A stretch of DNA of 28,478 bases from a virus: IMG/VR virus record IMGVR_UViG_3300042305_001169, positions 1-28,478 of that record; one strand, given 5' to 3'. A program made the translations under genes and the position numbers. Below, piece after piece: positions 12,001 to 28,478 of the stretch. Within the stretch, counting starts at the first letter, position 1, and each line of letters starts with the position of its first letter. The notes under the pieces are model-generated. The model had not been told where the DNA came from. It saw only the letters and a program-made list of their open reading frames with translations, and did not search any database.

Positions 12001-13796
12001 TCTGGCGTAATTACAGATTCATCCAGTGTATCACTAATCTCCGTGGTTCTGGTGTTTGTAGTAACCCTCTTTACAAATTCATTGATCTGTTGTTCCGACT
12101 TTAAAAATTGATTTTCACCAAGAGTTGGTTGCGCGGCTGTTCCTTCAATGTTTTCTTCGGTGGTTAAATCAGACTGTTTAGCTCTGAACTTTTGCGGGGT
12201 AAGATCTGCTTTTTCGGCGCGGAATGTTTTGGCGGAAAATACTTTTGGGCTTTCGGTGACGCGAACCACATACGTCCCATCCCCAAGGGCTTCTGATTCA
12301 ACTGTTTTTTTTGATGTTGGTACTGCCGTAGTATCTCCATTCTGTAGAGTTTCGGTAACGGTGGCCAGCAACCCTTCATTGGTTGTTAGCTTTTGAGTCA
12401 GTGACTTAGGAAGCTGGGCGGCATCTCTGGCCGTAGTAGATATCCGTTTAACGAACTGGTTGACCTGTTGTTCGCTCTTGACAATTTCTCCTGCAACTAA
12501 AGTGGGTTCTTCGGCTTCACCTTCCAAGTTTTCTTGGCGGGTCAACGAGGGAATGGCTGTGCGGAACTTGGGAGGAACGGGGTCTGGTCGTTCTTTGGAA
12601 AATGTGATGGCCGAAAACACCTCATCCACTTGCGTCTTAGTAATGACGTAGTTCCCATCACCCAAAGCTTCAGATTCAACGGTCTTGGTGGCTGTCGGGG
12701 TTTCGTCGGTGTTGCCTAGCTGAAGAGTCTCGGTGACAGTGACTTCCTGTCTTTCGTTGTTGGTGGACTTTCCCGTAAGTGTTTGAGGTAGAACAGCTTG
12801 ATCTCGCGAAGTAGAAGACACGCGCTTGATAAACTTATTACGTTGTTCCTCGCTCTTAGAGAGTTCTCCTTCGTCTAGGCTGACATTGGGGTCAGCATCG
12901 CCTTCGACAATTTCTTGAGAAGATTGAATCGGAACAGCTACGCGAAACTTTTGCGGAATGGGGTCGGGACGTTCTACAGAAAACGTATTGGCCTTGAAGA
13001 TTTCGGGAGTGTCAACAATCCGCTCAACCAAGGATTCGGCATCCTCGCGAGAAACCTCTACTGTGCGCGTGGCGGTGGGATTGGGCGGAATATAGTTTAG
13101 TGCCCCCCTGCGCTGAGTTGTTACGGTAATTAACTGACCATCATTGTCTGTGGCCCTTCCGATCAATTGGGGGCCATCTACCTTGTAGGTTTGGACAATC
13201 TTGACTGAAAGAAATTCGTTGTATGGTTCGTAACTGGTTTGAGTAATAACTCCGTTGACATTCTCTAAAGAGCCAACCTCTTCTCCTGTGGGGACAAAAA
13301 GTTGGCGGCGTTCTTGGACTGCCCCGCGAGAGGCATCGTAAAAATCCCGATCCTTGATAGGAAAAAGAGAATTGCCATCTTCGTCAACTTTGATTGACCA
13401 AGTCTCTTCAATCTCTAAAGAAACAATGGCAGAGCCTTCGCGTCCCTCATAAGATATCTTCCTATCAGAAGCCAAATCAGCTTGTTGTCCCTCGTTTTTA
13501 ACTGCCCTGCGCCGACCTTGAATCGGGCCTAAATCATCATCATAGCGGGTAAATGGAACCCAAGGGGCGGGTAAAATCTCATAGATATGGGTGACAATCT
13601 GATCTCCAGAAGAAGGTTGAGCACCAGTAAAAACATGGTTGGGGTAGCGTTTTGAATCAGGATGCGGGCTTAGATCTTCTGGAACTTTGTAGCCAGCAAC
13701 CCTTGGATCAAGGCGTATTGCGACTACTGGATAATCACGGTCATTGGCCGCATATGAAGCGACATAGAAACGATTTAGCGGTGGATAATCAGCCAT
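9048..13796 (-). CDS. giant repetitive tail-fibre-like protein, eight to nine 126-residue repeats
   Basis: 1582 residues, first gene of the reverse operon. Residues 1-150 form a unique N-terminal domain, likely for virion attachment. From residue 267 to about 1271 the chain consists of eight tandem repeats with a period of 126 residues, beginning at 267, 394, 520, 646, 771, 897, 1023 and 1149; a degenerate copy seems to occupy about 152-266. Repeat landmarks are IP.KFR near the start, KSEQQ.N.FVKR in the middle and E.[LI]G[DG]G....K near the end, followed by [DE].VF. Residues 1272-1582 are a unique C-terminal region, probably the distal domain. Alternating Thr/Val/Ile strands suggest beta-sandwich repeats, so a long fibre-like adhesin is likely. 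No collagen-like or enzymatic motif is visible. A probable promoter lies just upstream (13810-13838). Confidence 0.75.
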   Translation of the reverse strand: MADYPPLNRFYVASYAANDRDYPVVAIRLDPRVAGYKVPEDLSPHPDSKRYPNHVFTGAQPSSGDQIVTHIYEILPAPWVPFTRYDDDLGPIQGRRRAVKNEGQQADLASDRKISYEGREGSAIVSLEIEETWSIKVDEDGNSLFPIKDRDFYDASRGAVQERRQLFVPTGEEVGSLENVNGVITQTSYEPYNEFLSVKIVQTYKVDGPQLIGRATDNDGQLITVTTQRRGALNYIPPNPTATRTVEVSREDAESLVERIVDTPEIFKANTFSVERPDPIPQKFRVAVPIQSSQEIVEGDADPNVSLDEGELSKSEEQRNKFIKRVSSTSRDQAVLPQTLTGKSTNNERQEVTVTETLQLGNTDETPTATKTVESEALGDGNYVITKTQVDEVFSAITFSKERPDPVPPKFRTAIPSLTRQENLEGEAEEPTLVAGEIVKSEQQVNQFVKRISTTARDAAQLPKSLTQKLTTNEGLLATVTETLQNGDTTAVPTSKKTVESEALGDGTYVVRVTESPKVFSAKTFRAEKADLTPQKFRAKQSDLTTEENIEGTAAQPTLGENQFLKSEQQINEFVKRVTTNTRTTEISDTLDESVITPEGQLATRTITLSKSAQTLVPSATVIDGNVEELGDGRTVKTEVRVDEVFDGKQESLEKPEVIPPEFRASLQNRTISEIKTGQAISLPSLSQEELSKTIQRVTEHKIRETKVTRPSDDYPKLTGELVDNDQIKVTRTRTVAKGGQTITPSATVSGSVEALGDGYTLKTEDTKEKFFEGKSFSQEKPDNIPVEFRAEKPVTIEEFTEEGDVQEVSLADDEISKSEQQVTEFLKRTRTATRDIIGGVTLEGEQIDQDGIKVTVTRSLQDGTQSIAPSATTSGQVEAIGGGKTIKTELEKSEVFNARTLTRQQAFQLPAKFVTGETEEESFIEESKNAEPEELGDNGTGIVQSTAQRVTAFTVRKTTRTVDGTTSTTEKQLSNSGQEITIESEISDDSSIETGAKVEIARTQAIGGGKFLKEIGKVEEVFNSKQRTFTQAAQIPAKFLDGKITETNFIEEGTTEEPEEVGSDGFGVVQSSSQRVNAFLRRQTQREQEGTTSLTEQQTNNFNQRITVTSSIVDDPEVEPSAKTEFARTQAIGGGKYVKEVGVVDSVFPETTRTRRQGAQIPQAFVDGQNTFTRIEEGTNDEPEELSENGYGIVETSAQRITENKVRRSRTGIDVSGQTVTTKVFTQELGGGLANLTQKLNSPIAPSFGTISAEETSIGGGATVSRELVLAAPPALAGEDYDEVTSIQIPFTQQFVEAGEEGEIGSSITPRDVFHSQKRTIDIQAAKKEYLKYEVITDDVVSINLPDVLESIEITVEQIEGGQNSTATGNSSQAQCTASADWEIAVRPKISSGASGSYPASKHIFFIDPEDSTALGFKTIDTGFINKPPVTIPVGTIIERTQSNPFPLFRPQSQSFNIIVESERVVGSASVSLPDNKSESISSEKNVRIQTVTLPFCINTDVSLAKTSGNFVVEKNAKAEGPDVSTEVKVKAEAKYRIEGANPIPRTPPYEFIPSGRFLYSVNTQLYRFGLVKVEATIVTL
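9984..12998 (-). repeat. eight diverged tandem repeats of about 378 bases inside the fibre gene
   Basis: Coding repeats of 126 residues. In reading order the units occupy 12998-12618, 12617-12240, 12239-11862, 11861-11487, 11486-11109, 11108-10731, 10730-10353 and 10352-9984. The first five carry KSEQQ.[NT].F.KR-type cores and E[AE][LI]G[DG]G ends; units six to eight share another subtype with Q[SR].[SA]QR[IV].[AE] cores and [QS][AS]IGGG ends. The nucleotide sequences have diverged enough that the repeat is clearest in protein, so the array is old or under diversifying selection. The fixed length of 125-127 residues shows strong structural constraint. Confidence 0.85.
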
Positions 13797-15078: not shown

Positions 15079-15594
15079 CTAGCGTTTGCTGAATGCTAAA
15101 AGTTCCAACCTTTGGTGTTCAGCATTGCTCAAAACTTGCAAGTTCTCAATCCTGTTGTCCATTCCATCTCCGTTGATATGATGAACATGCTCCCATCTTT
15201 CCAGCTTTCTTCCAAGATGAAGTTGCATAATGTGGCGATGTTCTCTAATTTGTTTGCCATCAACAACTATCGATTTGTATTTCCTTGGAGCGCACTTTCC
15301 AGCGCGAGCAATAACAGGACTGGCAAGTTGAGCCCTTTTTGTGATCTCTGGATGAGCCAATACGATGCAACGGCGCGAGCAATACAATGCAGTCTTAAGC
15401 CTGTATTTCGGCGCATAAAAAGATTTGCCACAAATTTTGCATTCCAACGTTTTTCCGTTTCGGCGTTTAAGGCCGCGCTGTTTTCCAAATCTTTTGGCAA
15501 TGTCGTAAGACTGGCAACTCCGACAGCAATACTTGTGGCTGGTTCGTCTTGGTTTAAATTCGTTTTTGCAATGAGGACATTCTTTAAGTTTCAT
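15079..15594 (-). CDS. HNH homing endonuclease with two N-terminal zinc ribbons
   Basis: 171 residues from Met at 15594 (15603 is an alternative; the longer frame to 15846 runs through an antisense region and is unlikely). Two Cys4 zinc ribbons come first: Cys6/Cys9/Cys23/Cys27 (CPHC ... CCRSC) and Cys52/Cys55/Cys72/Cys76 (CKIC ... CSRRC). They are followed by a C-terminal HNH domain (about 115-165): [33 protein letters not shown], ending with EH. His138/His139, Asn147 and His160 are the likely catalytic and zinc residues. This is the layout of free-standing phage homing endonucleases, which cut at a recognition site and spread by recombination. It is on the opposite strand to the surrounding operon and abuts the previous stop, consistent with insertion. 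Confidence 0.87.
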
Positions 15595-15685
15595 ACTGGA
15601 CATCATAGCTATTGCGATGTCTGAGTCAAATAAAAAGTGAGATATTTTCTTTGAACGAATCAACCACACATCTGTCAAAGCACAC

Positions 15686-16318
15686 ATGATCACACATACA
15701 GCCAAAATGCCAATCTTTGGTCGAGGCGTTCCAGAGATGGAAGAAAAAAGACTCGCCAATCTTAGGATAGCCAATGCCAAACCAAGGTCTCCAGAACACG
15801 TTGCTAAACTGAAAGCGGCTTTCAAAACAAGCTGGGCTTCTGGCAAGCGAAAAAAACAGTCTCCTGAAGCTTGGAAAAAACGGGCTGAAAGCGTCAGAAA
15901 AACCTATGCTCTTGGTAATTATAAAAAGCGGAGCTTTGAAGAAATGAGCAAGATTGGCAAGGAGAACAGAAAAAACGTTGATTATGGCAAGCTCTGTCTA
16001 GCCAATCGCATACTTGCAGAGAAACGGCGCGGAACAGAAATGCCAAAAACAAACAAAAGTGGATTACCGTCTAGGGGGTGCAAATCGCCCAATCATTGGA
16101 AATCAAAATATTGGAGCGTTGAGAGGCATGACGGGATTGTTCTTGAGGGAAAGAATCTCAACGATCTTATAAGAAAGAATTCACATTATTTTAATCCAGA
16201 GGATGTGGAATGGAAAAAATCTGCTTGCCGCGCATCGGCTGGATTGCGTCAGCTTTTTGCTGGGCGTGTCAATGGCCCCAAAATTTGGAAGGGTTGGAGC
16301 GCAAGATATCTTCCGTAA
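15686..16318 (+). CDS. NUMOD3-like DNA-binding protein, homing-endonuclease relative without visible nuclease domain
   Basis: 210 residues, very basic. Three short helix-turn motifs recur: [15 protein letters not shown] (near 33-47), [17 protein letters not shown] (near 58-74) and [14 protein letters not shown] (near 82-95). They resemble the NUMOD3 modules that homing endonucleases use to grip DNA. The C-terminal 75 residues ([26 protein letters not shown], then [17 protein letters not shown]) resemble the sequence-specific end of intron-encoded endonucleases. No HNH or GIY-YIG centre is seen, so it may be a degenerate endonuclease, or a DNA-binding partner of the divergent HNH gene. ATG 15707 is a possible start. 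It ends ten bases before the next gene. Confidence 0.65.
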
Positions 16319-16328
16319 GAATATAACA

Positions 16329-17195
16329 ATGCAAATCACCAACAATTTTTCGCTTCCGCAACCCTTTGTTGACCTAGTCAGCGAGTCTTCGTATTCGTCA
16401 GGGGAGGCGGACATCACTACAACCAGCCTCTTCCAGCCTCCGAAGATTCGGGAGTTGATGCGGCGTCATGCCGATACCATCACCGAGGACGCTTCGGATC
16501 GCGTATGGACAATGCTTGGAACAGCCAATCACTACGTTCTGGAACAGATCGCCAAGCGCAACCCCGAACGCTACGTCTGCGAGGAGAGGTTCTATATGGA
16601 TGTTGACGGGGTGAAGCTTGGTGGGCAAATCGACCTCTATGACAAACAGGATCAAGTCCTTTATGACTATAAGGTAAGCAGTGTCTACAAGGCTATGAGC
16701 GATGATCGCTTTGAGTGGACGGCGCAGGCGGCGGTCAACCGACTCCTACTGGAACACAGCGGACATCCAGTAAAACGCGCAGCCATCATCTTAGTAATGA
16801 AAGATTGGAGAATGCGGGACTCCAAGATTAAAGCTGACTATCCAAAATGTGCAATTGTGGAAATTAGGTTGGATGCATGGAAGCCCGAAGAAACGTTTGC
16901 ATATATCAAAAGTCGGATTAATCTCCACCAGCAAGCAAAAGACCTTCCCGATGACCAGATACCGATCTGCACCGAATCCGAACGCTGGCGCGTCCCAGAC
17001 CTCTATGCCGTCCTCCCGAAAAAAGGAGCAAAGCGAGCGGTTAACAATGGGACTTACGAAGACCGACTACAGGCTGAGTCTCACGCCAAGAGTATCGGAG
17101 GTATTGTTGAGGAACGGCTTGGGGAAGATAAACGTTGCGCGGACTACTGCCGTGTTAGAGGCCATTGCAACTACTGGAGAAACCTAAAAAAATGA
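16329..17195 (+). CDS. PD-(D/E)XK exonuclease, Cas4/RecB-like with iron-sulfur cluster
   Basis: 288 residues from ATG 16329; a longer frame to 16203 would overlap the previous gene. Nuclease motifs are in order: the H motif GTANHYVLEQ (His68), the first acid in GGQIDLYD (Asp102), the D-x-K pair in YDYKVS (Asp113, Lys115) and Gln133 in WTAQAAVNRL. Four cysteines at 214 (PICTESERW), 270, 274 and 280 (CADYCRVRGHC) are placed like the [4Fe-4S] ligands of Cas4- and AddB-type nucleases. It is expected to be a metal-dependent DNA exonuclease for phage recombination or DNA end processing. It overlaps the DUF6321 gene by four bases and sits in the operon of the SWIM protein. Confidence 0.83.
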   Translation: MQITNNFSLPQPFVDLVSESSYSSGEADITTTSLFQPPKIRELMRRHADTITEDASDRVWTMLGTANHYVLEQIAKRNPERYVCEERFYMDVDGVKLGGQIDLYDKQDQVLYDYKVSSVYKAMSDDRFEWTAQAAVNRLLLEHSGHPVKRAAIILVMKDWRMRDSKIKADYPKCAIVEIRLDAWKPEETFAYIKSRINLHQQAKDLPDDQIPICTESERWRVPDLYAVLPKKGAKRAVNNGTYEDRLQAESHAKSIGGIVEERLGEDKRCADYCRVRGHCNYWRNLKK

Positions 17196-17624: not shown

Positions 17625-17852
17625 ATGAAACCACATCCAGACGATAGCATCTTCAAGGTCAAAGACTTCATCAACGAACTCTCGCGGGTTCAAGATGCCT
17701 ATTTTGAGTCCTTGTGCTTTGAGCTTGGATTAGATAGCGAAGATCGACTCAGAGATCATCTATTCGACTATATCTATAACGAAGAACAGCTAATTACCTT
17801 CGGAGAATATCTAGATAAGTTGGGTCAGGGAGATCTTTGGGACGGGTTGTGA
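17625..17852 (+). CDS. small acidic hypothetical protein
   Basis: 75 residues, acidic and helical (IFKVKDFINELSRVQDAYFE, then LDSEDRLRDHLFDYIYNEEQ). No family recognised. It follows a 54-base gap with no visible signal and overlaps the start of the next gene by four bases (GTGA), so it is probably translated together with the glycosyltransferase-like protein. Confidence 0.65.
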   Translation: MKPHPDDSIFKVKDFINELSRVQDAYFESLCFELGLDSEDRLRDHLFDYIYNEEQLITFGEYLDKLGQGDLWDGL

Positions 17853-18634
17853 CCCTCAACATATTTACAATTGTTCTTGATGGTTCTCCGTGGATCGGGG
17901 CGCAGTTTGCTGAGTTGTGTCGATTAAAGGATGCGGACTGGCATTGGTCGATTGTTGAGGGGGCGGCGATGCCTGTAAAAGATACGGGCTGGATGGGCAA
18001 TCAGAGTGGGAAAGTTTCCCATGATGGCACCCATCAATTCCTGCAAGCCCTAGCGACTCATCCCCGAGTCACGGTTAACTCCAAAGCGGAATGGGGCGGA
18101 AAGACAGAGATGATTAATGCTGCATTGACTGCATTTAAGAAAGACGGCGTCTTACTTCAAATGGATAGTGATGAGTTGTGGACTGAGGAACAAATGCGGA
18201 GATTGGTCGAGCTATTCGCCGCAAACCCCGAAGCAAATACCGCTCAGTTTGAAATGGATTATATGCTTGGCCCTAACGTAAAGTCCACATCTACAGATGG
18301 TTATGGCAATAGGAAGAATGAGTGGGTTCGGGCTTGGAGGTATAGTGTCGGGCTTTGGATGGAGCGCCATGAACCTCCCGTATTCAATGGCAATCGTGGA
18401 CAACTACTGGATCGCAGTAAGACCTTAATGACTGTCGGCAAGATCCTGCACATGGCATGGGTGACCCCGCAACAGGTGGCTCAGAAGCAACGTATATACA
18501 AAGGTGGATACGAGAATGCCTGTGAAGATTGGGAGAGACTACAAAATAATACGGAGTGGCCCGTAAAGGATCTTAAACAGTTTTTGCCTTGGGTGGGAAA
18601 TAATGCTTCCGCCGATCTTCTTTTTAGGGTATAA
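17849..18634 (+). CDS. glycosyltransferase family 2-like protein
   Basis: 261 residues from GTG 17849, preferred to TTG 17837 because it forms a GTGA overlap with the preceding stop, as elsewhere in this genome. The N-terminal strand LNIFTIVLDG, the conserved helix GGKTEMINAAL, and the DxD-type motif in LLQMDSDELWT (Asp106, Asp108) follow the GT-A fold of family 2 glycosyltransferases, where DxD binds the sugar nucleotide through a metal. Later W.R.W.Y and HMAW segments could form the acceptor side. It may modify a virion protein, phage DNA base or host glycan. The acceptor is unknown. It directly precedes the virion-protein block. Confidence 0.7.
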   Translation: MTLNIFTIVLDGSPWIGAQFAELCRLKDADWHWSIVEGAAMPVKDTGWMGNQSGKVSHDGTHQFLQALATHPRVTVNSKAEWGGKTEMINAALTAFKKDGVLLQMDSDELWTEEQMRRLVELFAANPEANTAQFEMDYMLGPNVKSTSTDGYGNRKNEWVRAWRYSVGLWMERHEPPVFNGNRGQLLDRSKTLMTVGKILHMAWVTPQQVAQKQRIYKGGYENACEDWERLQNNTEWPVKDLKQFLPWVGNNASADLLFRV

Positions 18635-18642
18635 GTTCTCAA

Positions 18643-19338
18643 ATGGCCGAGAAAGTAAAGATCAAAACAAAATACGGAACCATCTCTGCTACACCAGAAC
18701 AGGCTAAAAATTGGAAAGCTAGAGAAGAAGGGGATAGGGTTAAAAAAGAACGGATCTCTGCCGTTAAGGAAAATGCGCGTTCCTTAAATCGATATCGTCA
18801 ACAGGCTCAAACATACAAGCAGCAAACAAAGGCTAGGGAACGGCGAGCCGCAGGCGGATATGATGCCACCCCAACTAACATGTATGGACAGCCAATTGAG
18901 TCTTTTTGGCAATCTGCCCCAACAATGCCAGAAATGAGGCCAGTTCCTCAAATGCCAGAAGCTCCAACATTTCCTGCTGAAGCTTCATATCGTCCTCCGA
19001 ATCCTCTTGTTAATTCAATGTTATATCCAAAAACAAATAACTATGGAACAATGGATGCGTGGCTTGGAAATTCGCGTTATGGCCCATTTGACTCTAGCTC
19101 TTGGTCGGACACAAGTTATATAACACAACATCCAGTAGATGACGAATATCAAAATATCGAAAAAGAAAAAATGTATCGAAATTTGCCTTACGACGAAAAC
19201 ATGGTAAGATCTATAGGAATTCCAATGGGCTATAGTAAGTCTCTTCCAGAATTTTCTAATCGTTTTGGCGCAAGTTTGTATACAGTTCCTGCTGGATTAA
19301 GGGCATTAACAAGAAATCCATACCTGAATTACTATTGA
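18643..19338 (+). CDS. hypothetical, proline- and tyrosine-rich probable virion protein
   Basis: 231 residues. The N-terminus is basic and helical (VKIKTKYGTISATPEQAKNW, then a coiled stretch to about residue 67). The rest is rich in Pro, Tyr, Asn and Met, low in predicted order, and ends LNYY. The C-terminal half is AT-richer than the N-terminal half. No family is recognised. Position between the glycosyltransferase and a chain of internal-virion-like proteins suggests a packaged protein. It may use its aromatic C-terminus for assembly, as the next proteins end in similar aromatic motifs. Confidence 0.6.
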   Translation: MAEKVKIKTKYGTISATPEQAKNWKAREEGDRVKKERISAVKENARSLNRYRQQAQTYKQQTKARERRAAGGYDATPTNMYGQPIESFWQSAPTMPEMRPVPQMPEAPTFPAEASYRPPNPLVNSMLYPKTNNYGTMDAWLGNSRYGPFDSSSWSDTSYITQHPVDDEYQNIEKEKMYRNLPYDENMVRSIGIPMGYSKSLPEFSNRFGASLYTVPAGLRALTRNPYLNYY

Positions 19339-19374
19339 CCTTCTCTTTGGAGGGTGGTAGCTTTGCGGGCAACT

Positions 19375-20349
19375 ATGTCCTCATTGACCCTTGGCCTTGC
19401 CGTAGAAAGACTTCCTACCTCCGTAGTTCCCCAGCCCGATCCTCCCGATCTGGAGGGTTTTGACGCACAGGCAGAACTCCGTAGCAATATCAATCGTGTT
19501 CTAGAGCGATTCCATGCCGAGGGCAAATGGGAGGGGCTTATTGCTCAAGCCACAGTTACGGCCTACGAGGACGCCAATGACAATAAGTTCATTACTCTCC
19601 CTCGCCATTTAGAGACCTGTATTCGTGCAGGAAAATCAGGGTATAAGACTATCGCAGTTCAGAGTGAGTGGTATCAGTATTTGCCCCAAGGGCGCGGCAT
19701 TCGTAAGACTGACGAGAAATACTATGGCCCGATCCAAGATATGGGTGAAGGCTTTGTTACCTTTCGGGACATTGAGACCGCATCACAACTTACCCTATCT
19801 AGCAGCGAGACCGAATGTGCAGGAAGCTACATTTGGATTCGCGGAAAGGACTCAAATGGGAATAAAATTTATTCTACAGTGGATGGAGAACGAGTGGAGG
19901 GAATTCGTCTTGACCTTGGAGACGGAACACAAACCACATCTCAGACATTCAAAGAGATCTATTCTGTCGAGAAAACCCCTACCACGGGCGTTATCTCCCT
20001 ATCAGCGGGAGCTACCACATTGGCCAAGTATGAGTCGGGCGAGCGGGCAATAAGCTACCGCCGCTATCTGGTGGATCGCAATTGGGATAGCGTCCAAGGC
20101 ATCTTCAAGCGCAAGCATTGCTGGGCAATCAGCGACAACGACCCGCTTTATCCTGATTCCCTTGAGGCTATCAAGTTGGGTCTTATGGCCCTGAACGCCG
20201 AAGAAAAATCTGACGTTGAGCGCGGACAATATTATATGGATAGAGCTATTTTGCTTCTCAATGCAGAACTAAAAGAGTATAACGCAGGGCAAGAAGGAGT
20301 TATGCAAATAGCCCCTTGGCTTACCCGCCGACTCGTAAACATGACTTAA
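19375..20349 (+). CDS. probable structural protein, possible head-tail adaptor
   Basis: 324 residues from ATG 19375; GTG 19354 in the same frame is an alternative. The N-terminal helix (RSNINRVLERFHAEGKWEGL) is followed by beta-rich sequence and a C-terminal helical part, DSLEAIKLGLMALNAEEKSD then GQYYMDRAILLLNAELKEYN. This order, with 'AIKLGLMALNAEEKSD...A..Y...A..LLN.E', resembles the C-terminal helices of adaptor or tail tubular proteins of podovirus-type phages, which dock on the portal, but my match is by memory of pattern only. It lies at the head of the internal-virion-like block, as such adaptors often do. Confidence 0.55.
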   Translation: MSSLTLGLAVERLPTSVVPQPDPPDLEGFDAQAELRSNINRVLERFHAEGKWEGLIAQATVTAYEDANDNKFITLPRHLETCIRAGKSGYKTIAVQSEWYQYLPQGRGIRKTDEKYYGPIQDMGEGFVTFRDIETASQLTLSSSETECAGSYIWIRGKDSNGNKIYSTVDGERVEGIRLDLGDGTQTTSQTFKEIYSVEKTPTTGVISLSAGATTLAKYESGERAISYRRYLVDRNWDSVQGIFKRKHCWAISDNDPLYPDSLEAIKLGLMALNAEEKSDVERGQYYMDRAILLLNAELKEYNAGQEGVMQIAPWLTRRLVNMT

Positions 20350-20353
20350 TACT

Positions 20354-20782
20354 ATGGCATACGCATCAACATCAACAACCATGGCAAGCCCGTTTGAGCA
20401 AATGCAACGTCAGGCCATGGAGGGTTTGTATGGCATGGGACTTACTGGAGAAATGGATATCAATGAGATTCGTCGCAGGCAAAGAGAAATAGAGCAATTT
20501 AGCAGGCGGGCTGGTCGCGGGCAGCTTGGCCGCATGTTTGGTGGTTCTATGTTCGACGCCCCAACATCTACATCTACATTTAATGACGGTAGTTATTCTG
20601 GGTCTATGGGATCTCCGTCTATGCCCTACTCTTCAACTATGATGGGAGGATCATCAATGATGGGAAAGCGTCCAACATCTTCTTTTGGTGGGTCTTCTAC
20701 AGGGAACCCCTATTCTTCTACTTCTAATTGGTCTTCGATGGGGGCAGCGCCAAGGTTCCCGTATGGCGGAATGATGTATTAA
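20354..20782 (+). CDS. low-complexity Ser/Gly/Met-rich probable virion protein with APRFPYGG C-terminus
   Basis: 142 residues. A helical segment (about 13-60, EMDINEIRRRQREIEQFSRR) is followed by a Ser/Thr/Gly/Met-rich, presumably disordered tail. It ends with MGAAPRFPYGGMMY. The short motif APRFPYGG recurs twice in the next protein (GAPRYPFAG and GVPRFPFAG), so it is probably functional, for instance an assembly or docking peptide. No family recognised. The gene starts four bases after the preceding stop and ends four bases before the next. Confidence 0.6.
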   Translation: MAYASTSTTMASPFEQMQRQAMEGLYGMGLTGEMDINEIRRRQREIEQFSRRAGRGQLGRMFGGSMFDAPTSTSTFNDGSYSGSMGSPSMPYSSTMMGGSSMMGKRPTSSFGGSSTGNPYSSTSNWSSMGAAPRFPYGGMMY

Positions 20783-20786
20783 TCCA

Positions 20787-21731
20787 ATGGCCTTATTCTC
20801 AGACAATCCATTTGTTGGTGTTTTTCGGGCTCAGAAAAGGCGCGAGGAGGAAGACGCTATGGCCCAGCAACAGGCAAAGCAACAGGCAAAGGCAGAACGG
20901 GCGCAGCAAGCACAGCAACTTGCAGGAAAAAGACTAGAGCAGCTACAATCTATTCCTTCCGATATTCGCGGCCTTGAGGCTATGCGTAGATCTAATGTCG
21001 CTTACGGTTTTGGATTGGGTGGATCAACTCCTTGGACATATAAAACAACCACAAATCCTCAAACTGGAGCGATTACAAGAGTTCCAACACTTAAACAAGG
21101 ATATACACAAGTTGGACAGGGAGCGTCATTGGATAGTCGCCCAATTATGGCGAAAGGCCCAACACTTGCGCCAGCGGGGAAGAAAGTTGGAGTAATGGGC
21201 GCTGGGACAGCGTTCAAGCAGGAGTACAGAGGAATAAGAGAGGGGCTTGAGCGCGGCGGGGCGACTGTTATTGAGGGGCCAGAGAAGTTCGTTCGCGGAA
21301 AAGGAACCAGTCAAAAAGATAGAGCAAGTCAATTTTATTCCGAGGTAACAGGAAGACCAATGGGATCATTGATGGGGCGTGGGGCCTATGGTGGATTTGG
21401 CAAGGGAGCACAACCGCAACCAACACAACTTTCTCAAGGATTTGGCAATCTTTCTCCAAGACAATATCCCGCGCTAACAGAAGCCACAAAAATCACACAA
21501 GGAGAAATGGGTGTTTCTGGAAATCCGATTGGTTTTACTGGATTTGGTCAAGCCGCCAGAACACAAGCCGCCGAACAAACTGTATCACCAATTGGAGAAG
21601 GTTTTGGATCAATCGGAAGCAATCTTTTCGGAGCGCCAAGATACCCGTTTGCTGGTTCTAGATCGGCTTTTGAGCGCGGAGCAGAATATACCACACTCGG
21701 AGTTCCCAGATTTCCTTTTGCTGGATATTAA
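20787..21731 (+). CDS. probable internal virion protein, Gln/Ala coiled coil plus two [AV]PR[FY]PFAG motifs
   Basis: 314 residues. Residues about 15-55 form a Gln/Ala/Arg-rich coiled coil (QQQAKQQAKAERAQQAQQLA). The centre is Gly-, Thr- and Pro-rich with no recognised domain. The motif GAPRYPFAG lies near residue 282, and the protein ends GVPRFPFAGY; both resemble the end of the preceding protein. Such loosely structured Gln/Ala proteins are common among internal or ejection proteins of podovirus-type phages. The role is inferred from composition and neighbourhood. Confidence 0.6.
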   Translation: MALFSDNPFVGVFRAQKRREEEDAMAQQQAKQQAKAERAQQAQQLAGKRLEQLQSIPSDIRGLEAMRRSNVAYGFGLGGSTPWTYKTTTNPQTGAITRVPTLKQGYTQVGQGASLDSRPIMAKGPTLAPAGKKVGVMGAGTAFKQEYRGIREGLERGGATVIEGPEKFVRGKGTSQKDRASQFYSEVTGRPMGSLMGRGAYGGFGKGAQPQPTQLSQGFGNLSPRQYPALTEATKITQGEMGVSGNPIGFTGFGQAARTQAAEQTVSPIGEGFGSIGSNLFGAPRYPFAGSRSAFERGAEYTTLGVPRFPFAGY

Positions 21732-21734
21732 TCA

Positions 21735-22928
21735 ATGAATGATATAGCCAAAAAAAACGCTCAAGAAATGCTTAGAAGGGCTGAGAGTTCTCCTCGCAGG
21801 CAATGGGGGTGGGGAACTCCAGAAATTGGAACTACTTCTCCAGAAGAAAGGGAGGCTTACGAATATCTAGAAAAGAAACCTCTGGTAGAGTCTGGTCAAT
21901 TATCGCCCGCTGAATTGCCAGAGCAATACGGTGGTCGCCCACAAGGAACTACCCGCAGGGCTATTAGGTCACAAGTTGCTTGGGATGCGGGGTATGCTGC
22001 TGAGTTGGAACGACAGAGGCAAATAAGAGAGATGGAGATGGAACAAAAAAGATTCAATCTTCAACTTGATCAAGAGAAAAGGATGCAGGGTCAATACCAA
22101 CTTGAATTGGATGCGGCATTGAAACGCAGCGCCAGAGAAAACCGAATTCAAGATGAAGCAAGGGCAATTCAAGATTCTATTATTGGTGGAAAGTATCTTG
22201 GAGATCAGGATGGAGTTCCGCAATTTTCACAACCAATTAGGCCAGATGATGATGATGCGGTTGATCGGCTTAGAGAGATAGCAAGAAACCGACTTGGAAT
22301 GGAAAATCCCGCAGCACTGGCGATGTGGAAAGATTTGTATGAAGACGCCCAAAAATATCAAGAGGCAAAAGCAGAAAGCGCCATTGAGACACGCGACAAA
22401 AACCTTTCATTTATTGTAGATCAACAGAAAGAAGCGTCCTCTCTTGGTGTTGATGTTTCTCCGTATTTTACTCAGGATGAACAAACTGGAGAGGTGACCG
22501 CCGTGGATCAGATTGGACTTTCAGAGGCCATTGGAAAAGCAAAGAAAGAAGATATCGAAAGAAAGAAGCAAGAGATTGTTGGATCAAAACTTGATGAAGA
22601 AAGCCGCAAGCAGGCTGTTTCAATCATTGGTCAGATTGAAGATACGGATAAGCTAATCCGAGAGGCAAATTTTAAGGCACAAAGAGAGACCAGCAAAAAG
22701 ATTATAGATGAGTATTTGTCTCAATCTGAATTTCTTAGAAGTGAGCGGGCATTGCTTGAACAAAGATTTAATAATGTTGTTCCTCAAAAACAACAGACAC
22801 AACAGGCACCGCAGGCACAGCCACAAAAAGAACTTAGCCAACAAGACCAAGCTGCGCTAAACTGGGCCAATGCAAACCCAGACGATCCTAGAGCAAAAAA
22901 AATTAAAGACAAACTTGGAGTTCAATAA
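21735..22928 (+). CDS. probable internal virion (ejection) protein, long coiled coil
   Basis: 397 residues, strongly helical: Glu/Arg/Gln-rich coiled coil around 90-150 (LERQRQIREMEMEQKRFNLQ and after) and again around 265-345. A Gln/Pro-rich linker (QKQQTQQAPQAQPQKE) is followed by a short terminal segment, AALNWANANPDDPRAKKIKD, ending KLGVQ. The WA.ANPDDPRA..I...LG ending is a recurrent tail of phage virion proteins. An ejection protein that helps bring DNA and the following giant protein into the cell is a reasonable reading. The stop overlaps the next start by one base (TAATG). Confidence 0.62.
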   Translation: MNDIAKKNAQEMLRRAESSPRRQWGWGTPEIGTTSPEEREAYEYLEKKPLVESGQLSPAELPEQYGGRPQGTTRRAIRSQVAWDAGYAAELERQRQIREMEMEQKRFNLQLDQEKRMQGQYQLELDAALKRSARENRIQDEARAIQDSIIGGKYLGDQDGVPQFSQPIRPDDDDAVDRLREIARNRLGMENPAALAMWKDLYEDAQKYQEAKAESAIETRDKNLSFIVDQQKEASSLGVDVSPYFTQDEQTGEVTAVDQIGLSEAIGKAKKEDIERKKQEIVGSKLDEESRKQAVSIIGQIEDTDKLIREANFKAQRETSKKIIDEYLSQSEFLRSERALLEQRFNNVVPQKQQTQQAPQAQPQKELSQQDQAALNWANANPDDPRAKKIKDKLGVQ

Positions 22929-25900
22929 TGGCCTTTGATCCAGATGAATATCTGAACGAGAAAGGCTCGCCATTTACCGCCACAACGGAATTTGATCCAG
23001 ATGCCTATCTCAGTGAGTTGGACTCAGAAAAAGAAACTGAGTTTGATCCTGATGCCTATTTAGAAGAACCTTCTCCTGTTGCTGGTCTCAGGGTTCCAGA
23101 GGCTCCCCCAATAGTTGAGCGTCCAGTAGAGAAAACTGAAGAGGGGATTCTTCGCAAGGCGGCAGATGTTCCCGTTCGCTTTCTTGGCGGAACGGCTGGC
23201 GTCCTTAAATCTGTTGCCGATGTTTTCGGGGCAGACAGTCCAGCTTCTCAGGACTTTGCCGAAAGACAGAGGTTTTTCCAGAACCTTGTTTCTGAAAGCG
23301 GAAAAGAAAAAGACAAGCGAGCGGCAGAGATTATCAAATCTACAGAAGACGCTGGTCTTTGGGAGCGGGCAAAGTCGGCAGGAAAAGCATTTCTTGAATC
23401 CCCTAGCTCTATGCTTGCCACTGGTGCTGGGAGCTTGGCTCCCTTTATTGCTACTGCTGGAGTTGGAACAGCAGCAAGATTAGGAGCGGCTGGTGTTCGC
23501 GGACTTCAAGTTGCGGCTGGTGCTATTTCTGGTGCTGGAACGGTTAAGGGGGAAATTTACGATGCAGTAAAACAAGCAGCTATTGATGCTGGAAAGACCC
23601 CAGAAGAGGCCGAAACACTCGCTTCCGAAGCTCAATCTTATGGCGAAAACCCAGAACAGATTTTAGCTGGCGGGGCTATTGGAGCACTAGCCGCATCTAC
23701 TGGTATTGAAGCCACTGCTGGTAGGGCTATTTCTGGAGCGGCAAGAAAGCTGGCCACTGGAGCGCAAATCGTCGGTAAAAACGTAGCACAAGAGGTTGTT
23801 ACAGAAGTTCCGCAAGAAGCCCAAACCGCACTTGCTAAAAACTTTGCTTTGCAAAAAGCAGGATTTGATGTGCCTACACTTCAGGGTGTGGTCGAGGCGG
23901 GAACTACGGCTGGTATTGTGGCGGCAGCATTGGGTGGTGCGGCTGGAGGGATTGATGCCATAGCAGCAGCGTCCGAAAACGCACAAAAAGTTAAACTGGC
24001 CGTTAACACACAGAGTGCAGCACAGCAAGTTAGCGATGTGGCCCCGTTTACGGCTTCTGTTGTTTCAGACCAAGCGGAAGTTGTTGGACGCGAAGGTGCA
24101 GAAGATCTTCAGACGGAAGCCGATCAAAAGATTACTGAAATTACTCAAGAAACCCCCGAACAGCGAGTAGCCCGTCTCCAAGAAGAAGCTGCCGCAGCAG
24201 CAGGAATAGAACTAGAAGAAGAGGGAGTCGGGGTCGAGCCGCCTGTTGCCGTCACTCCTCCCGTAGCCCCCACTCCCGAAGGCGCAGTAGCCCCTGTAGA
24301 GCCAGTAGTTGAGCCAATAGTAGCAGAGCCGCAGCCAGAGCCAGAAACGCTCGTCTCGCCCGATGTGGTGGCAGAAACTGTCTCGCCGCAAGCCGTAGTC
24401 CCAGAGACCGAGCCAGCCGACATCCCCGACACCAGAGGACAGGGCAAACAATTTCATGGAGCCAGAGGGCCGATAGAAGGACTCACCGAAGGCTACTATA
24501 GTTCCGACAATATCTACGGAGGAGAGTCTACTTTCTACACAACGGATGCGGTGGACATTGCGGCGGGCTACCAGCGCAAAAAGCCCAATGCCGTCATCTA
24601 CCAAACAACCGAGAAAAAACCAGTTAACTTCTTTGACATGGAAGAGCGGCGTCCCGCCTCTGAATGGGAACAGATGTTCGCGCCCACTGAGGCTACTGGA
24701 ATTCCGTCAGAAGGGTTTGTTCCATTTGGCATAGAGTTGGCTGCTGAAAAAGCAAACGGCACCCCGAACCTCCGCGAGGTCATGGACGAGATGAGGGCTG
24801 AATCCGCGAATGAAGGCTACTCGCGGGATACGCTTCAAGAGTTTTTTGCAGGGATGACGGGGACGCTGGAAAAGATGGGCTTTGGTGGAATGCAGCATAT
24901 CGGTGGACTCCAAACCAACAGACCGCAACACAATGTAAAGATCTACTTCAAGCCATCCGAGCAGCTAGACATTACGCCCGTGGATGTGCGCGGCAATCCC
25001 GTAACTCCCGTAACGCCTGTAGCCCCGACTCCAGAGGGAGTAACCCCGACCCCCGAAACCCCGAATCTTGAACCTCTACGCCGAGTAGCAAGAGCAGAAC
25101 AAACAGAAGAGGATGTTTCGGGGTTGGTCGGTCAAGGACTAGTCGAGCTATACAATGGGCAACCAGTGATCACGCAAGCGGGTCTAGAGGCGTTGCCAGA
25201 GGCCGAACGCCCAAGGCTGAACCCCGAAGCCCGAAAGATCCAAATCGACACAGGATCAAACGAAGTAGTAGCCGAAGCCATCGCGAAGAATCTTCGTATC
25301 GGGGTGGATCAGGTTGGAACAGGTGTGCGTATGCCCGCAGGATGGACACTGGTAGAGGATATCTATGTTCCGCCGAAACCCATCGAAAGAATAACACCTT
25401 CCGAAATTGAAACCGCTGTAATCCCCGAAGAAGCAGGAGATGTGTTTGCCAACTTGGTTAGAAGGAAGCAAGAGGTTCAGCCTACTGTCTTGCAGAAACC
25501 AGCAGGATCTCAGTTCCAAAATCCAGAAGAATTTCGTTCGGCGTTTGATCTTCGTGGCCAAGGACATACACGTTTTGCCATCAGGCTGGATTTAATGCAG
25601 GAGGACGGCGCAATCACAGAAGATGGAAAGAGCCTCATCCTTGCCACAATTTGGGATAACAACACAAATGACGAATTCCTCGCCAACATGGAGATGGGTA
25701 GCGCCCGCAAGAACGTCAAAAGCTACGGGTATGGCGGAAGAACAAGGCAGACAGTCGAAGGCGGAAGAGTCGAGCAAAAGCCACTTCTTGAACTAATTCG
25801 CCAAACTCGTAGAGGTGGAGCCGAGGTCGATAAAAAAACGGCACTAACACTTAATACTTTTTGGCATGAATATGGTCATGCTGGTTACTATTCTTTGCTG

Positions 25901-28478
25901 GATGCCAAGCAAAAGAAGTCAGTAGATGATGCATATAATAAAACCACAAGGTCTGGTCGCAGGGCGTTTTTTGCCGAAGGAAAATCCGATGCTGAAAACA
26001 CTCCTTGGTTCTCAAAGTATTACGCCAAAAACCAATCAGAGTGGTTTGCTCAATCATTTGCCGAGTATGTAATAACGCAAAAGTCTGATCAGAAAAAGTT
26101 GGTTCCAATCTTTGAGCAGATTTTGGATAAGGTCAAAGCCGTCTTTACTAAGCTTTTCAACAGGAAAGAACAGGTCAATCTCAATGACATCTTTGACTTC
26201 ATCCTTCGCGGCGAAGCCTATGGTCAGAAGCCAACTTGGCAGGGATACACGATGTCTACCAAGCCAGCGGTCTACGGAACGCCTAGAGGACAGGCGATAT
26301 CTCCAGAATTTACAAAGAGGGCTTTAGAGCGAGGAGAGGAAGTCTCGTTTGCGGATGAACGCCGTCAACAAATCATTGATGGGATAAGTCTAAAGTTTAA
26401 AAGATCCAAGAATGAATACGGGAACAATGAGTTTAAGACAGAATACGATTTCGGTGGCCGTAGTACTATAGTGGATAAAATATCATTTAGCCTTGAACAA
26501 TTTGATGATTCTACTGTTGCCATGTCCTACTTGCCCTCCAAGGGTGGTAAATATGTAAATATCAAGCTTGGAGAGTTAGAGCAACAGTTTAAGGGGAGAG
26601 CCGCCGCCGAAAGAGCTATCAAGCGGGCTATTGCAGAAATCGAAATGGACGAACGTGTTGGTGGCGCGGAAGAGGCCGCTCCAATAACAGATGTTTGGCA
26701 AGCTCCCGAACAAGAGATTACTTCGGCAAAAACCTCCATCAATGAAAAGAAACTCCCAGCAGTTTTTAACAAGGTTAAAGAATGGGTTTCTGGAACAGTC
26801 AACGCCGACATTGGGGGCGGAAGATTTGATAACGCTACAGATTGGTTACGGGATCGCGGCGTAACTAATCTTATTATTGATTGGTTCAACAGGGATCGCG
26901 CCTTCAACGAAGCAAACATTAATCGTGTTCGTGGAGGTCAGGCAGACACGGCAACAGCCTCCAATGTTCTAAATGTAATTCAAGAGTCAGATGCTAGGGA
27001 TCTTGTTATTCGTCAGGCGGCGGATGCTATCAAAGAAGATGGGGCGGCATACTTCTATATTTACGAGGGAGATAAATCTGGAACTGGAAAACAAACCACA
27101 TCTGGATGGCAAGAGAATCGCAGGACACAAGACTACATTGATGAGATTTCTCAGCACTTTGGAGATGTAACCCGTCAGGGGCAAATGATCGTTGCGAGGA
27201 ATCCAATTAAAGAGGGTGCAGAACCGACAATGCCACCAGAAATTCCCGAAACCATCCCCACCTTCTCCGATGGAAGCCCCGAAGCATCTACTCTTTCTAC
27301 TATGGCGGCGTCTATGGCCAAGGTGGATGCGGCGTCCGAGGCAAAAGGCCCGACAGCCCTAAAGATTGGCGAGATAGCTTCTATCTGGATGGATCAAGGT
27401 GGAGACACCCGCCAACTCCAAGATCTTATTACGGAGAACACTAACCTCACCCCAGCCAATGCCAAGAAGGTGGCCAATGCCATTGCCAAGCAATACGATA
27501 TCCAACAATCTATTAAGACAGCATTCCTTGAAACTCCTGCTGGTGTTTCGGTGGAAGCCTTGCCCGAAGGTGTAACACTTCCCAAGGAAGTTGATCCTGA
27601 TCGGCCCCGCCCCGTCATGCAGCGTCTCTTTGATGTATTCATGGGTGTGAGGGTTCCCCCCGTCAAGATTACGGTCAACGAGAAGACGGCACTCAAGCAA
27701 CAAATCCGACTCAAGGCCGCAGCCAATCGTGCGGCAAAGCAGGAACAGCAACGCATAGCAGATGAGGTGGTCGAAGTAATTAAGGCCATGGAGCTTCGCG
27801 GCCCCGTGCGCCCAAAACAAGCCCAAGCCCTAGCTAAACGCGCAGCTAAAGTAATCTGGACGAGCGAGAAGTCCATGGAGAGCTTTGTCGAATACGCTGC
27901 CAAGGTGGTAGAGAACGCCAACTATGATGCCGATCTTCGCGAGGCCAAGGCAGCACAGAAACGCGCCAAGGAACTTTCCAAACAGAAGAAAGTCGCCATG
28001 AGTCCGCAGCGTCTAATTCTCCAGCAGATCGGCAATGTCGCAGCAAACAAGCTGGAAGATCCCCGCATGTTTGCCGAGATGATCAACTACTACTTGCGTG
28101 GATTCAAGGATGTGCGTTCTCCTGATTATGTAGTTGTTCCTGATGAAGAAATCACGGGCTACATTTCTCAACTTGAAACAGAGTCTGTTAATGATCAAGC
28201 CGAGGTAGAGCGCGAGACCAACGAAAGATTGGCCCGCAAATACGATCTTGATCCAAATGCCATTCCAGAATTGATGAGCCTTATCAACATCATTGAAGAG
28301 ATTGAAGGCAGGGAGAACCGAGAAGCTTTGGAGTCGATCCTTACCGATAAGGCAATCGAAACCCAAGACGGGTTGCGAGGATACGACACAACCGCGCTTA
28401 CTAATACTCAGAAGAATCTTGTTGAATCAATGTTAAATGTGGATTTGAAATCCATTAATACACAAGAGAGGCAAATGT
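22928..28478 (+). CDS. giant polyvalent virion protein with ADP-ribosyltransferase-like, zincin and SAM-methyltransferase domains, truncated by window end
   Basis: At least 1850 codons open to the window end. Order: three FDPD[AE]YL repeats (3-45); Ala/Gly-rich, membrane-like helices (about 160-350); a Pro/Glu/Val-rich linker (about 425-500); an ADP-ribosyltransferase-like or associated region (about 505-690) with QFHGARG (His510), STFYTTD (Tyr537) and DIAAGYQRK (Tyr548); a second Pro/Thr linker; a zincin protease around 850-1090 with HEYGH (His980, Glu981, His984) and a downstream SEWFAQSFAEY that supplies the third ligand; a Rossmann methyltransferase about 1270-1430 with DIGGGRFD (1294-1301), LIIDWFNRDR and NVLNVI (1346-1351); then long helical regions. 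This matches the polyvalent proteins of phages and conjugative elements, which enter the cell with the DNA and act on host defences or chromatin. Frame is confirmed because all motifs fall in one frame from ATG 22928. Confidence 0.85.
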   Translation, partial: MAFDPDEYLNEKGSPFTATTEFDPDAYLSELDSEKETEFDPDAYLEEPSPVAGLRVPEAPPIVERPVEKTEEGILRKAADVPVRFLGGTAGVLKSVADVFGADSPASQDFAERQRFFQNLVSESGKEKDKRAAEIIKSTEDAGLWERAKSAGKAFLESPSSMLATGAGSLAPFIATAGVGTAARLGAAGVRGLQVAAGAISGAGTVKGEIYDAVKQAAIDAGKTPEEAETLASEAQSYGENPEQILAGGAIGALAASTGIEATAGRAISGAARKLATGAQIVGKNVAQEVVTEVPQEAQTALAKNFALQKAGFDVPTLQGVVEAGTTAGIVAAALGGAAGGIDAIAAASENAQKVKLAVNTQSAAQQVSDVAPFTASVVSDQAEVVGREGAEDLQTEADQKITEITQETPEQRVARLQEEAAAAAGIELEEEGVGVEPPVAVTPPVAPTPEGAVAPVEPVVEPIVAEPQPEPETLVSPDVVAETVSPQAVVPETEPADIPDTRGQGKQFHGARGPIEGLTEGYYSSDNIYGGESTFYTTDAVDIAAGYQRKKPNAVIYQTTEKKPVNFFDMEERRPASEWEQMFAPTEATGIPSEGFVPFGIELAAEKANGTPNLREVMDEMRAESANEGYSRDTLQEFFAGMTGTLEKMGFGGMQHIGGLQTNRPQHNVKIYFKPSEQLDITPVDVRGNPVTPVTPVAPTPEGVTPTPETPNLEPLRRVARAEQTEEDVSGLVGQGLVELYNGQPVITQAGLEALPEAERPRLNPEARKIQIDTGSNEVVAEAIAKNLRIGVDQVGTGVRMPAGWTLVEDIYVPPKPIERITPSEIETAVIPEEAGDVFANLVRRKQEVQPTVLQKPAGSQFQNPEEFRSAFDLRGQGHTRFAIRLDLMQEDGAITEDGKSLILATIWDNNTNDEFLANMEMGSARKNVKSYGYGGRTRQTVEGGRVEQKPLLELIRQTRRGGAEVDKKTALTLNTFWHEYGHAGYYSLLDAKQKKSVDDAYNKTTRSGRRAFFAEGKSDAENTPWFSKYYAKNQSEWFAQSFAEYVITQKSDQKKLVPIFEQILDKVKAVFTKLFNRKEQVNLNDIFDFILRGEAYGQKPTWQGYTMSTKPAVYGTPRGQAISPEFTKRALERGEEVSFADERRQQIIDGISLKFKRSKNEYGNNEFKTEYDFGGRSTIVDKISFSLEQFDDSTVAMSYLPSKGGKYVNIKLGELEQQFKGRAAAERAIKRAIAEIEMDERVGGAEEAAPITDVWQAPEQEITSAKTSINEKKLPAVFNKVKEWVSGTVNADIGGGRFDNATDWLRDRGVTNLIIDWFNRDRAFNEANINRVRGGQADTATASNVLNVIQESDARDLVIRQAADAIKEDGAAYFYIYEGDKSGTGKQTTSGWQENRRTQDYIDEISQHFGDVTRQGQMIVARNPIKEGAEPTMPPEIPETIPTFSDGSPEASTLSTMAASMAKVDAASEAKGPTALKIGEIASIWMDQGGDTRQLQDLITENTNLTPANAKKVANAIAKQYDIQQSIKTAFLETPAGVSVEALPEGVTLPKEVDPDRPRPVMQRLFDVFMGVRVPPVKITVNEKTALKQQIRLKAAANRAAKQEQQRIADEVVEVIKAMELRGPVRPKQAQALAKRAAKVIWTSEKSMESFVEYAAKVVENANYDADLREAKAAQKRAKELSKQKKVAMSPQRLILQQIGNVAANKLEDPRMFAEMINYYLRGFKDVRSPDYVVVPDEEITGYISQLETESVNDQAEVERETNERLARKYDLDPNAIPELMSLINIIEEIEGRENREALESILTDKAIETQDGLRGYDTTALTNTQKNLVESMLNVDLKSINTQERQM
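22934..23062 (+). repeat. three FDPD[AE]YL repeats at the N-terminus of the giant protein
   Basis: Residues 3-9, 22-28 and 39-45 read FDPDEYL, FDPDAYL and FDPDAYL, separated by 12 and 10 acidic, flexible residues. The spacing and the identity of the motif suggest short linear binding peptides, possibly for packing the protein into the capsid or for docking to a portal or core protein. The repeat is visible in DNA as TTTGATCC[AT]GATG. Confidence 0.8.

Follow-up and report, generated by a model that had tools for sequence, protein, structure and literature searches.

Why do two neighbouring proteins of an uncultured phage, the products of P0001 and P0002, carry the same short peptide of prolines and aromatic residues, and what might such a peptide do? 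The window, by which we mean the whole stretch of DNA analysed here, is an entire IMG/VR record of 28,478 bases and represents a fragment from such a phage. The first-pass annotation had pointed out the peptide in both proteins and proposed that it was copied at the DNA level and might serve for docking or as a cleavage signal. The motif is real, and it extends beyond what that annotation saw.

Motif copies in the window

The features of the region are listed in Table 1. As originally read, P0001 ends with APRFPYGGMMY, whereas P0002 contains GAPRYPFAG, whose core begins at residue 283, and has GVPRFPFAGY as its last residues. Three copies of the pattern PR[FY]P[FY][AG]G are thus present in the two proteins, compared with 20,000 shuffles of their composition in which at least one copy was found once and at least two copies never. 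The exact form [AV]PR[FY]P[FY][AG]G is rare among the 51 proteins examined, with three copies in the window, one in L020, and none elsewhere.

Table 1. Coordinates of genes and motif copies in and around slot A of the window
Feature	Positions	Strand	Remarks
Glycosyltransferase-like gene	17837..18634	+	Upstream neighbour; Pfam PF00535, 26.2 bits vs cut-off 23.3
P0003, variable protein	18643..19338	+	Upstream of the anchor gene; contains APTFP as well as IKTKYGTISAT, a module that recurs
Motif copy APTFP in P0003	18961..18975	+	Residue 107; aligned residues of L020_U1 are VPQLP, i.e., not kept
Anchor gene, conserved	19354..20349	+	Putative neck/tail adaptor by position only
P0001, slot-A gene 1	20354..20782	+	142 aa; rich in G, S and M; C-terminus APRFPYGGMMY
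Motif copy APRFPYGG, P0001 C-terminus	20747..20770	+	Five-residue core from 20747
P0002, slot-A gene 2	20787..21731	+	314 aa; mosaic protein with two motif copies
PIGFTGFG in P0002	21525..21548	+	First half of a C-terminal module that recurs, NPxxFTxFG ... VPRFP
Motif copy APRYP within GAPRYPFAG, P0002	21633..21647	+	Core from 21633
Motif copy VPRFP within GVPRFPFAGY, P0002 C-terminus	21702..21716	+	Core from 21702
Gene B (P0004)	21735..22928	+	Block LPEQYGGRPQGTTRRAIRSQ conserved (21915-21974), C-terminal part exchangeable
Giant protein	22928..28478	+	Extends past the contig end; N-terminal region matches phrog_2206

P0003 had been drawn into the comparison by its last residues, LNYY. Its end is indeed aromatic, but the motif is absent from that end and is represented instead by the internal APTFP, whereas the related proteins L020_U1 and L025_U1 terminate with LPVFPYYPRVI and PPMFPYWPRVY, respectively. 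When the final 12 residues of 45 slot proteins are pooled, 103 of the 540 positions are aromatic, compared with 44 ± 6 in random windows; the aromatic tail is therefore a broader theme, in which LNYY is included. P0003 also carries IKTKYGTISATPEQA, akin to the TPYG module described below.

The proposal that the motif was copied as DNA is not supported. Pairwise comparison of the three copies, each 27 bases long, gives 20, 17, and 20 shared bases. When the peptides are back-translated at random according to local codon usage, these values are reached with P = 0.05, 0.63, and 0.38, respectively. All four proline codons are used for both motif prolines, and this variation leaves recent copying of DNA unsupported.

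Several other genes of the window can be described. Positions 16203-17195, upstream of the slot region, encode a PD-(D/E)XK-type exonuclease (phrog_2139, E 1.9e-41), preceded on the minus strand by an ORF at 15079-15846 that we take to resemble an HNH homing endonuclease. A protein of 1582 residues encoded on the minus strand at 9048-13796 contains repeated EKPDxIPxxFRA-like units and appears fibre-like by eye.

Related loci and the proteins of slot A

No relative in IMG/VR was confirmed when P0001 and P0002 were used as single query sequences (nor any in INPHARED for P0002), and scans with two slot-A proteins re-found contigs of the same group and nothing beyond. Searching IMG/VR with the anchor gene yielded 35 loci with 77-96% identity, and L141 and L142 were added by a second scan; the resulting set of 38 loci consists of the window and 37 related phage contigs, near-identical loci included. 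The anchor was also sought in 46 records, 45 of them reached via the capsid-like gene and L151 via the anchor scan; L151 alone was positive, with an incomplete anchor, and it was left out of the set. At the limits used, tblastn searches of INPHARED gave no match to the anchor, capsid-like, or portal-by-position proteins, and blastn gave none to 3.8 kb of the DNA of the giant.

Wherever a record is long enough, the order of genes is the same: the anchor gene is followed by slot A, which contains one or two genes, then by gene B and a long frame, with a giant frame exceeding 1200 amino acids seen in 26 of the 38 loci, although cut at the locus end. A homologue of the glycosyltransferase-like protein, with the string NIFTI, is found in 31 of the 38 loci. 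The window, L020, L025, and L141 have an extra variable gene ahead of the anchor, and a doubtful ORF takes this place in L023 and L024 (L023_U1 and L024_U1, both possibly non-genes and free of the motif). The anchor gene starts in many relatives at the codon corresponding to position 19375. Genes were called mechanically; L030, L031, and L141 end at contig ends, and the protein called as gene B in L141 is in fact a slot-A2 protein, a relative of L142_A2.

The anchor protein has no significant match in PHROG, PDB-sequence, or fold searches. The AF2 models were too poor for use, with a pLDDT of 46 for the anchor and 39 for the portal-by-position protein, and a search of PDB folds with the anchor model, which gave nothing at E 0.001, was disregarded. 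The 70-kb record behind L028 (G003) encodes the terminase large subunit (phrog_2, E 6e-15) and a DnaB-like helicase, and its portal, scaffold, and capsid genes are assigned by position only.

A total of 51 slot and upstream proteins were reduced to 46 by dropping the near-identical L011_A1, L019_A1, L027_A1, L031_A1, and L033_A1. By full-length similarity (70% coverage in both directions) these 46 proteins fall into as many as 29 families, yet local similarity joins 37 of them in a single component, so that pieces are shared among slot proteins. P0002, for example, is approximately 44% identical to L025_A1 (residues 226-310), L020_A1 (230-310), and L142_A2 (131-207). Two further shared modules are GGPQP, present in 18 of the 46 proteins, and TPYG (e.g., QTPYGTIYAT), present in 10 of them, both absent from gene B and from the giants searched. 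The slot proteins abound in Ala, Gly, Pro, Ser, Gln, Arg, and Thr and are nearly devoid of Cys and His, and they are probably disordered. In a set of 43 of the 46 (L030_A1, L023_U1, and L024_U1 left out), no protein matches Pfam at E 0.001, and the PHROGs gave two single-member matches with E of 0.004-0.005 and no function named; neither database relates the scanned proteins to known ejection proteins.

Recurrence, position and conservation of the core

Across the relatives, the core of the motif takes the form [VIL]PxFP, as in VPAFPS, NVPRFPV, SVPSFPS, IPRFPYL, LPRFPFGG, and others, and the residue before it is usually Gly, Asn, Ala, or Ser. Because this core was generalised only after the relatives had been read, it was put through four tests. 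The strict motif, [VILAM]P.[FY]P, is found in 27 copies in 22 of the 46 non-redundant proteins. These represent 16 separate contexts, defined by a flank identity below a threshold of 35%, compared with 1.9 expected and a maximum of 8 in 1000 shuffles. Among the 400 three-residue patterns with the most contexts, V..FP and VP.F lead the z-ranking against shuffles, although by the number of contexts alone other patterns exceed the motif (PQP with 23, and the four-residue PQPA with 14 vs 9 for VP.FP). When the elements of the motif are arranged in all 36 orders, the 35 others reach at most five contexts, vs 16 for the actual one. With the window excluded, 23 copies remain in 19 of 43 proteins, and 2000 shuffles give a mean of 1.9 and a maximum of 9.

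Counted by locus, 21 of the 38 have the strict form in a slot or upstream protein and 17 lack it. The looser P.[FY]P is found in 28 (10 being without it), vs 7.1 in shuffles with a maximum of 16 in 300, and P-x(1-3)-[FY]-P is found in 33, vs 16.4 with a maximum of 25. In L024, FP is missing from both the slot and the upstream protein, and the slots of G003 and G005, two of the four long relatives, are free of strict copies. Outside these proteins the strict motif is absent from the other genes of the window, from 57,544 residues of giant sequence, and, with one exception, from 13,696 residues of gene B. What is shown is that the motif recurs far above chance in differing slot contexts, whereas gene B and the giant are almost free of it. 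In the long relatives, the remaining called frames, comprising about 84,600 residues, contain one strict copy in G001, none in G003, three in G004, and none in G005. The copy in G001 (30631) and two of those in G004 (19801) lie in frames that look like non-genes by eye, and the third in G004 (51382), likewise by eye, belongs to a glycosyltransferase-like protein. A DNA pattern written for G[VILMF]PRFP[FY][AG]G, which also allows Ser at the position of Arg, has six matches in IMG/VR, three of them on contigs of the group (L013, L014, and L020). Frames were translated for L179-L182, and the other three matches (L179-L181), located in open frames of 30, 54, and 39 residues, were taken as chance.

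Such recurrence could in principle be generated without any function, if recombination had carried a few modules rich in proline and aromatic residues from one low-complexity protein to another, leaving the motif as their visible remnant. Candidates for such modules are at hand (NPxxFTxFG...VPRFP, VPAFPS, GGPQPA, TPYGTIYAT), the single component of 37 proteins described above is a mosaic, and the patterns that recur in even more contexts than the motif would fit as well. In homologous pairs, which were counted in both directions and hence are not independent, the motif prolines are kept in 115 of 134 cases (86%) vs 2431 of 3762 (65%) for other prolines, and the motif phenylalanine in 47 of 64 (73%) vs 955 of 1831 (52%), so that retention is only moderately above that of the same residues elsewhere. 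The first-pass annotation had named homologues without the motif as the observation that would speak against it, and such homologues exist in part, since the motif is retained in 33 of 51 aligned instances and lost in the other 18. Passive spread of modules stays a contender because the proteins are mosaic and the conservation of the motif is only moderate. We nevertheless consider it quite unlikely in view of the 16 contexts of low flank identity, the differing codons, the rarity of the other residue orders, and the clustering of copies at C-termini.

That clustering also bears on the earlier description of the motif as a feature of protein ends, which is true for 9 of the 27 non-redundant copies, ending within 15 residues of the C-terminus vs 1.5 expected, whereas the other copies are N-terminal or internal. 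Several proteins (L003, L008, L009, L020, L023, and P0002) have in common a two-part C-terminal module in which NPxxFTxFG or ESPxAFTxFG is followed by the motif 35-42 residues after the start of the module. Paired copies are separated by 23 residues in P0002 and by 24 in L020_A1. Of the 29 copies in total, 11 have their end within the first fifth of the protein and 13 within its last eighth (at 89% of the length or beyond), a distribution that would suit a maturation signal marking a cut by a prohead protease. The remaining five lie at 31%-78%, four of them at 31-48%, and with ends ranging from 4% to 99% of protein length there is no fixed position, terminal or otherwise. Moreover, a cut at two of the window copies would remove just a few residues, and two prolines around the scissile bond are unfavourable for most proteases. 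A cleavage signal, the second function suggested at the outset, is therefore unlikely, and we see a very slight chance for a cut by a prohead protease.

Possible partners of the motif

What the motif might bind can be approached through the genes next to the slot. Residues 104-424 of the giant of the window match the N-terminal part of a virion RNA polymerase family (phrog_2206, E 3.2e-6), whereas three pieces of the giants of relatives have no PHROG match at E 0.001, phrog_2206 included. The Pfam domain ART-PolyVal is found above its cut-off in one of four pieces of relatives' giants (L013, 39.2 bits vs 31.2), and the Pfam match of the window's own giant is below the cut-off. The giant of four long relatives comprises 2728 to 3556 residues. 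By eye, zincin-like (HEYGH), methyltransferase-like, and ADP-ribosyltransferase-like stretches can be recognised in the giant of the window. Polyvalent proteins are predicted to be packaged and injected (PMC5512222). From the matches to phrog_2206 and ART-PolyVal and from the gene order, we infer that slot A, gene B, and the giant resemble an ejection module; the location of the slot proteins in the virion and their ejection would thus follow from gene order and from two weak-to-moderate family matches of the giant.

The explanation that we prefer, tentatively and as one that falls somewhat short of probable, is that [VIL]-P-x-F-P is a short linear docking motif, displayed by interchangeable and perhaps ejected virion proteins and recognised by one conserved putative partner. 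Of the functions proposed by the first-pass annotation, a docking peptide is thus the best supported, with the core recurring in 21 of the 38 loci, in contrast to the copying of DNA and the cleavage signal. The carriers of the motif would be hypervariable mosaic proteins held in a fixed slot, with the anchor gene on one side and gene B and the polyvalent-type giant on the other. They could be loaded into the head as virion-internal proteins and ejected together with the DNA, their motif fitting a groove on a single conserved partner, for which the scaffold is the first candidate, followed by the portal or the anchor protein. Recombination would swap the bodies of the proteins while the plug for the conserved partner is retained, in a mode of action that may be likened to that of a cargo-loading peptide. 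A more specific form of this explanation, in which one conserved socket in the head or neck serves a pool of recombining, disordered ejection proteins, each qualified for delivery by [VIL]PxFP as a portable cargo tag, is possible but doubtful.

The main rival to docking on a phage partner is a partner in the host. If ejection delivers the slot proteins into the cell, [VIL]PxFP might bind a conserved host protein, and the variability of the protein bodies would reflect an arms race. The slot adjoins a giant with polyvalent and virion-polymerase signatures, the prediction that polyvalent proteins are injected (PMC5512222) applies here as well, and it is the bare short motif that recurs. All of this evidence fits a host and a virion partner alike, and a scan of genome contigs with the anchor confirmed no relative; we regard a host-directed role as unlikely.

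A different role for a phage partner would be that of non-ejected assembly helpers or tail-associated proteins that aid neck assembly beside the anchor, the motif being a peptide that binds the anchor. In the loci listed, the slot starts a few bases from the anchor stop codon or overlaps it, which suits such a role; however, the slot is equally near to gene B and the giant. We know of no assembly helper of this kind and consider this possibility improbable.

Docking on a conserved phage partner can be compared with known systems for loading proteins into phage heads and related shells. The capsid targeting sequence of T4 is a short N-terminal signal, cleaved in the process, that loads diverse internal proteins into the phage head. 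The motif resembles it as a short signal on diverse proteins, but it is found at either end of the slot proteins or inside them (the copies in the window are C-terminal or internal), and cleavage is unlikely here. The cargo-loading peptide of encapsulins, described as short, often C-terminal, and common to unrelated cargo of an HK97-type shell (PMC8346489), would be similar in being shared by otherwise unrelated carriers. The slot carriers are, however, variable mosaic proteins rather than enzymes, many copies of the motif are non-terminal, and binding to a shell is hypothetical in our case.

In P22, the scaffolding protein, but not the portal, is required for the incorporation of ejection proteins, N-terminal regions of both gp7 and gp20 have been implicated in the loading process, and the site of the ejection proteins in the virion is not accurately known (PMC8402733). 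Ejection proteins are more variable than other virion proteins (PMC8954989). The slot proteins share this strong variability with the ejection (pilot, internal virion) proteins of P22 and T7, and may share an internal, co-ejected role as judged from the giant. They differ from them in having no family match and in carrying a common short tag, which the available portions of PMC8402733 and PMC8954989 do not mention, and the often C-terminal position of the tag differs from the N-terminal parts implicated in P22. With the phage polyvalent proteins (PMC5512222) the link is the giant neighbour in L013 with its ART-PolyVal domain, whereas the slot proteins scanned have no Pfam domain. Open-access literature on short linear motifs of ejection proteins, disorder, hypervariable phage motifs, motif strings, and C-termini of internal proteins contains, in the parts available and among the matches listed, no description of the motif.

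The way in which short-tailed phages select and load their ejection proteins is understood only in part, and a motif found again and again in unrelated slot proteins whose bodies turn over offers a testable handle on this question. If the idea of a portable tag were true, [VIL]PxFP would be a cargo tag for the delivery of phage proteins and an analogue, on the hypervariable proteins of a tailed phage, of the encapsulin peptide. In addition, hypervariable phage genes that look like orphans can be linked by short motifs missed in homology searches with single sequences.

Gene B, located between slot A and the giant, combines constancy and exchange within one protein. The gene-B set comprised 32 of 36 proteins, with L019, L027, L033, and L141 left out. 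A block near the N-terminus, LPExYGGRPxGTSRRAIRMQ, is kept across the relatives, and a few modules replace one another at the C-terminus, including WANANPDDPRAKKIKDKLG, GTIVEIGGRRARID-like sequences, TTGQRPxLxDIFGG, and others. Such a module may represent a second docking signal.
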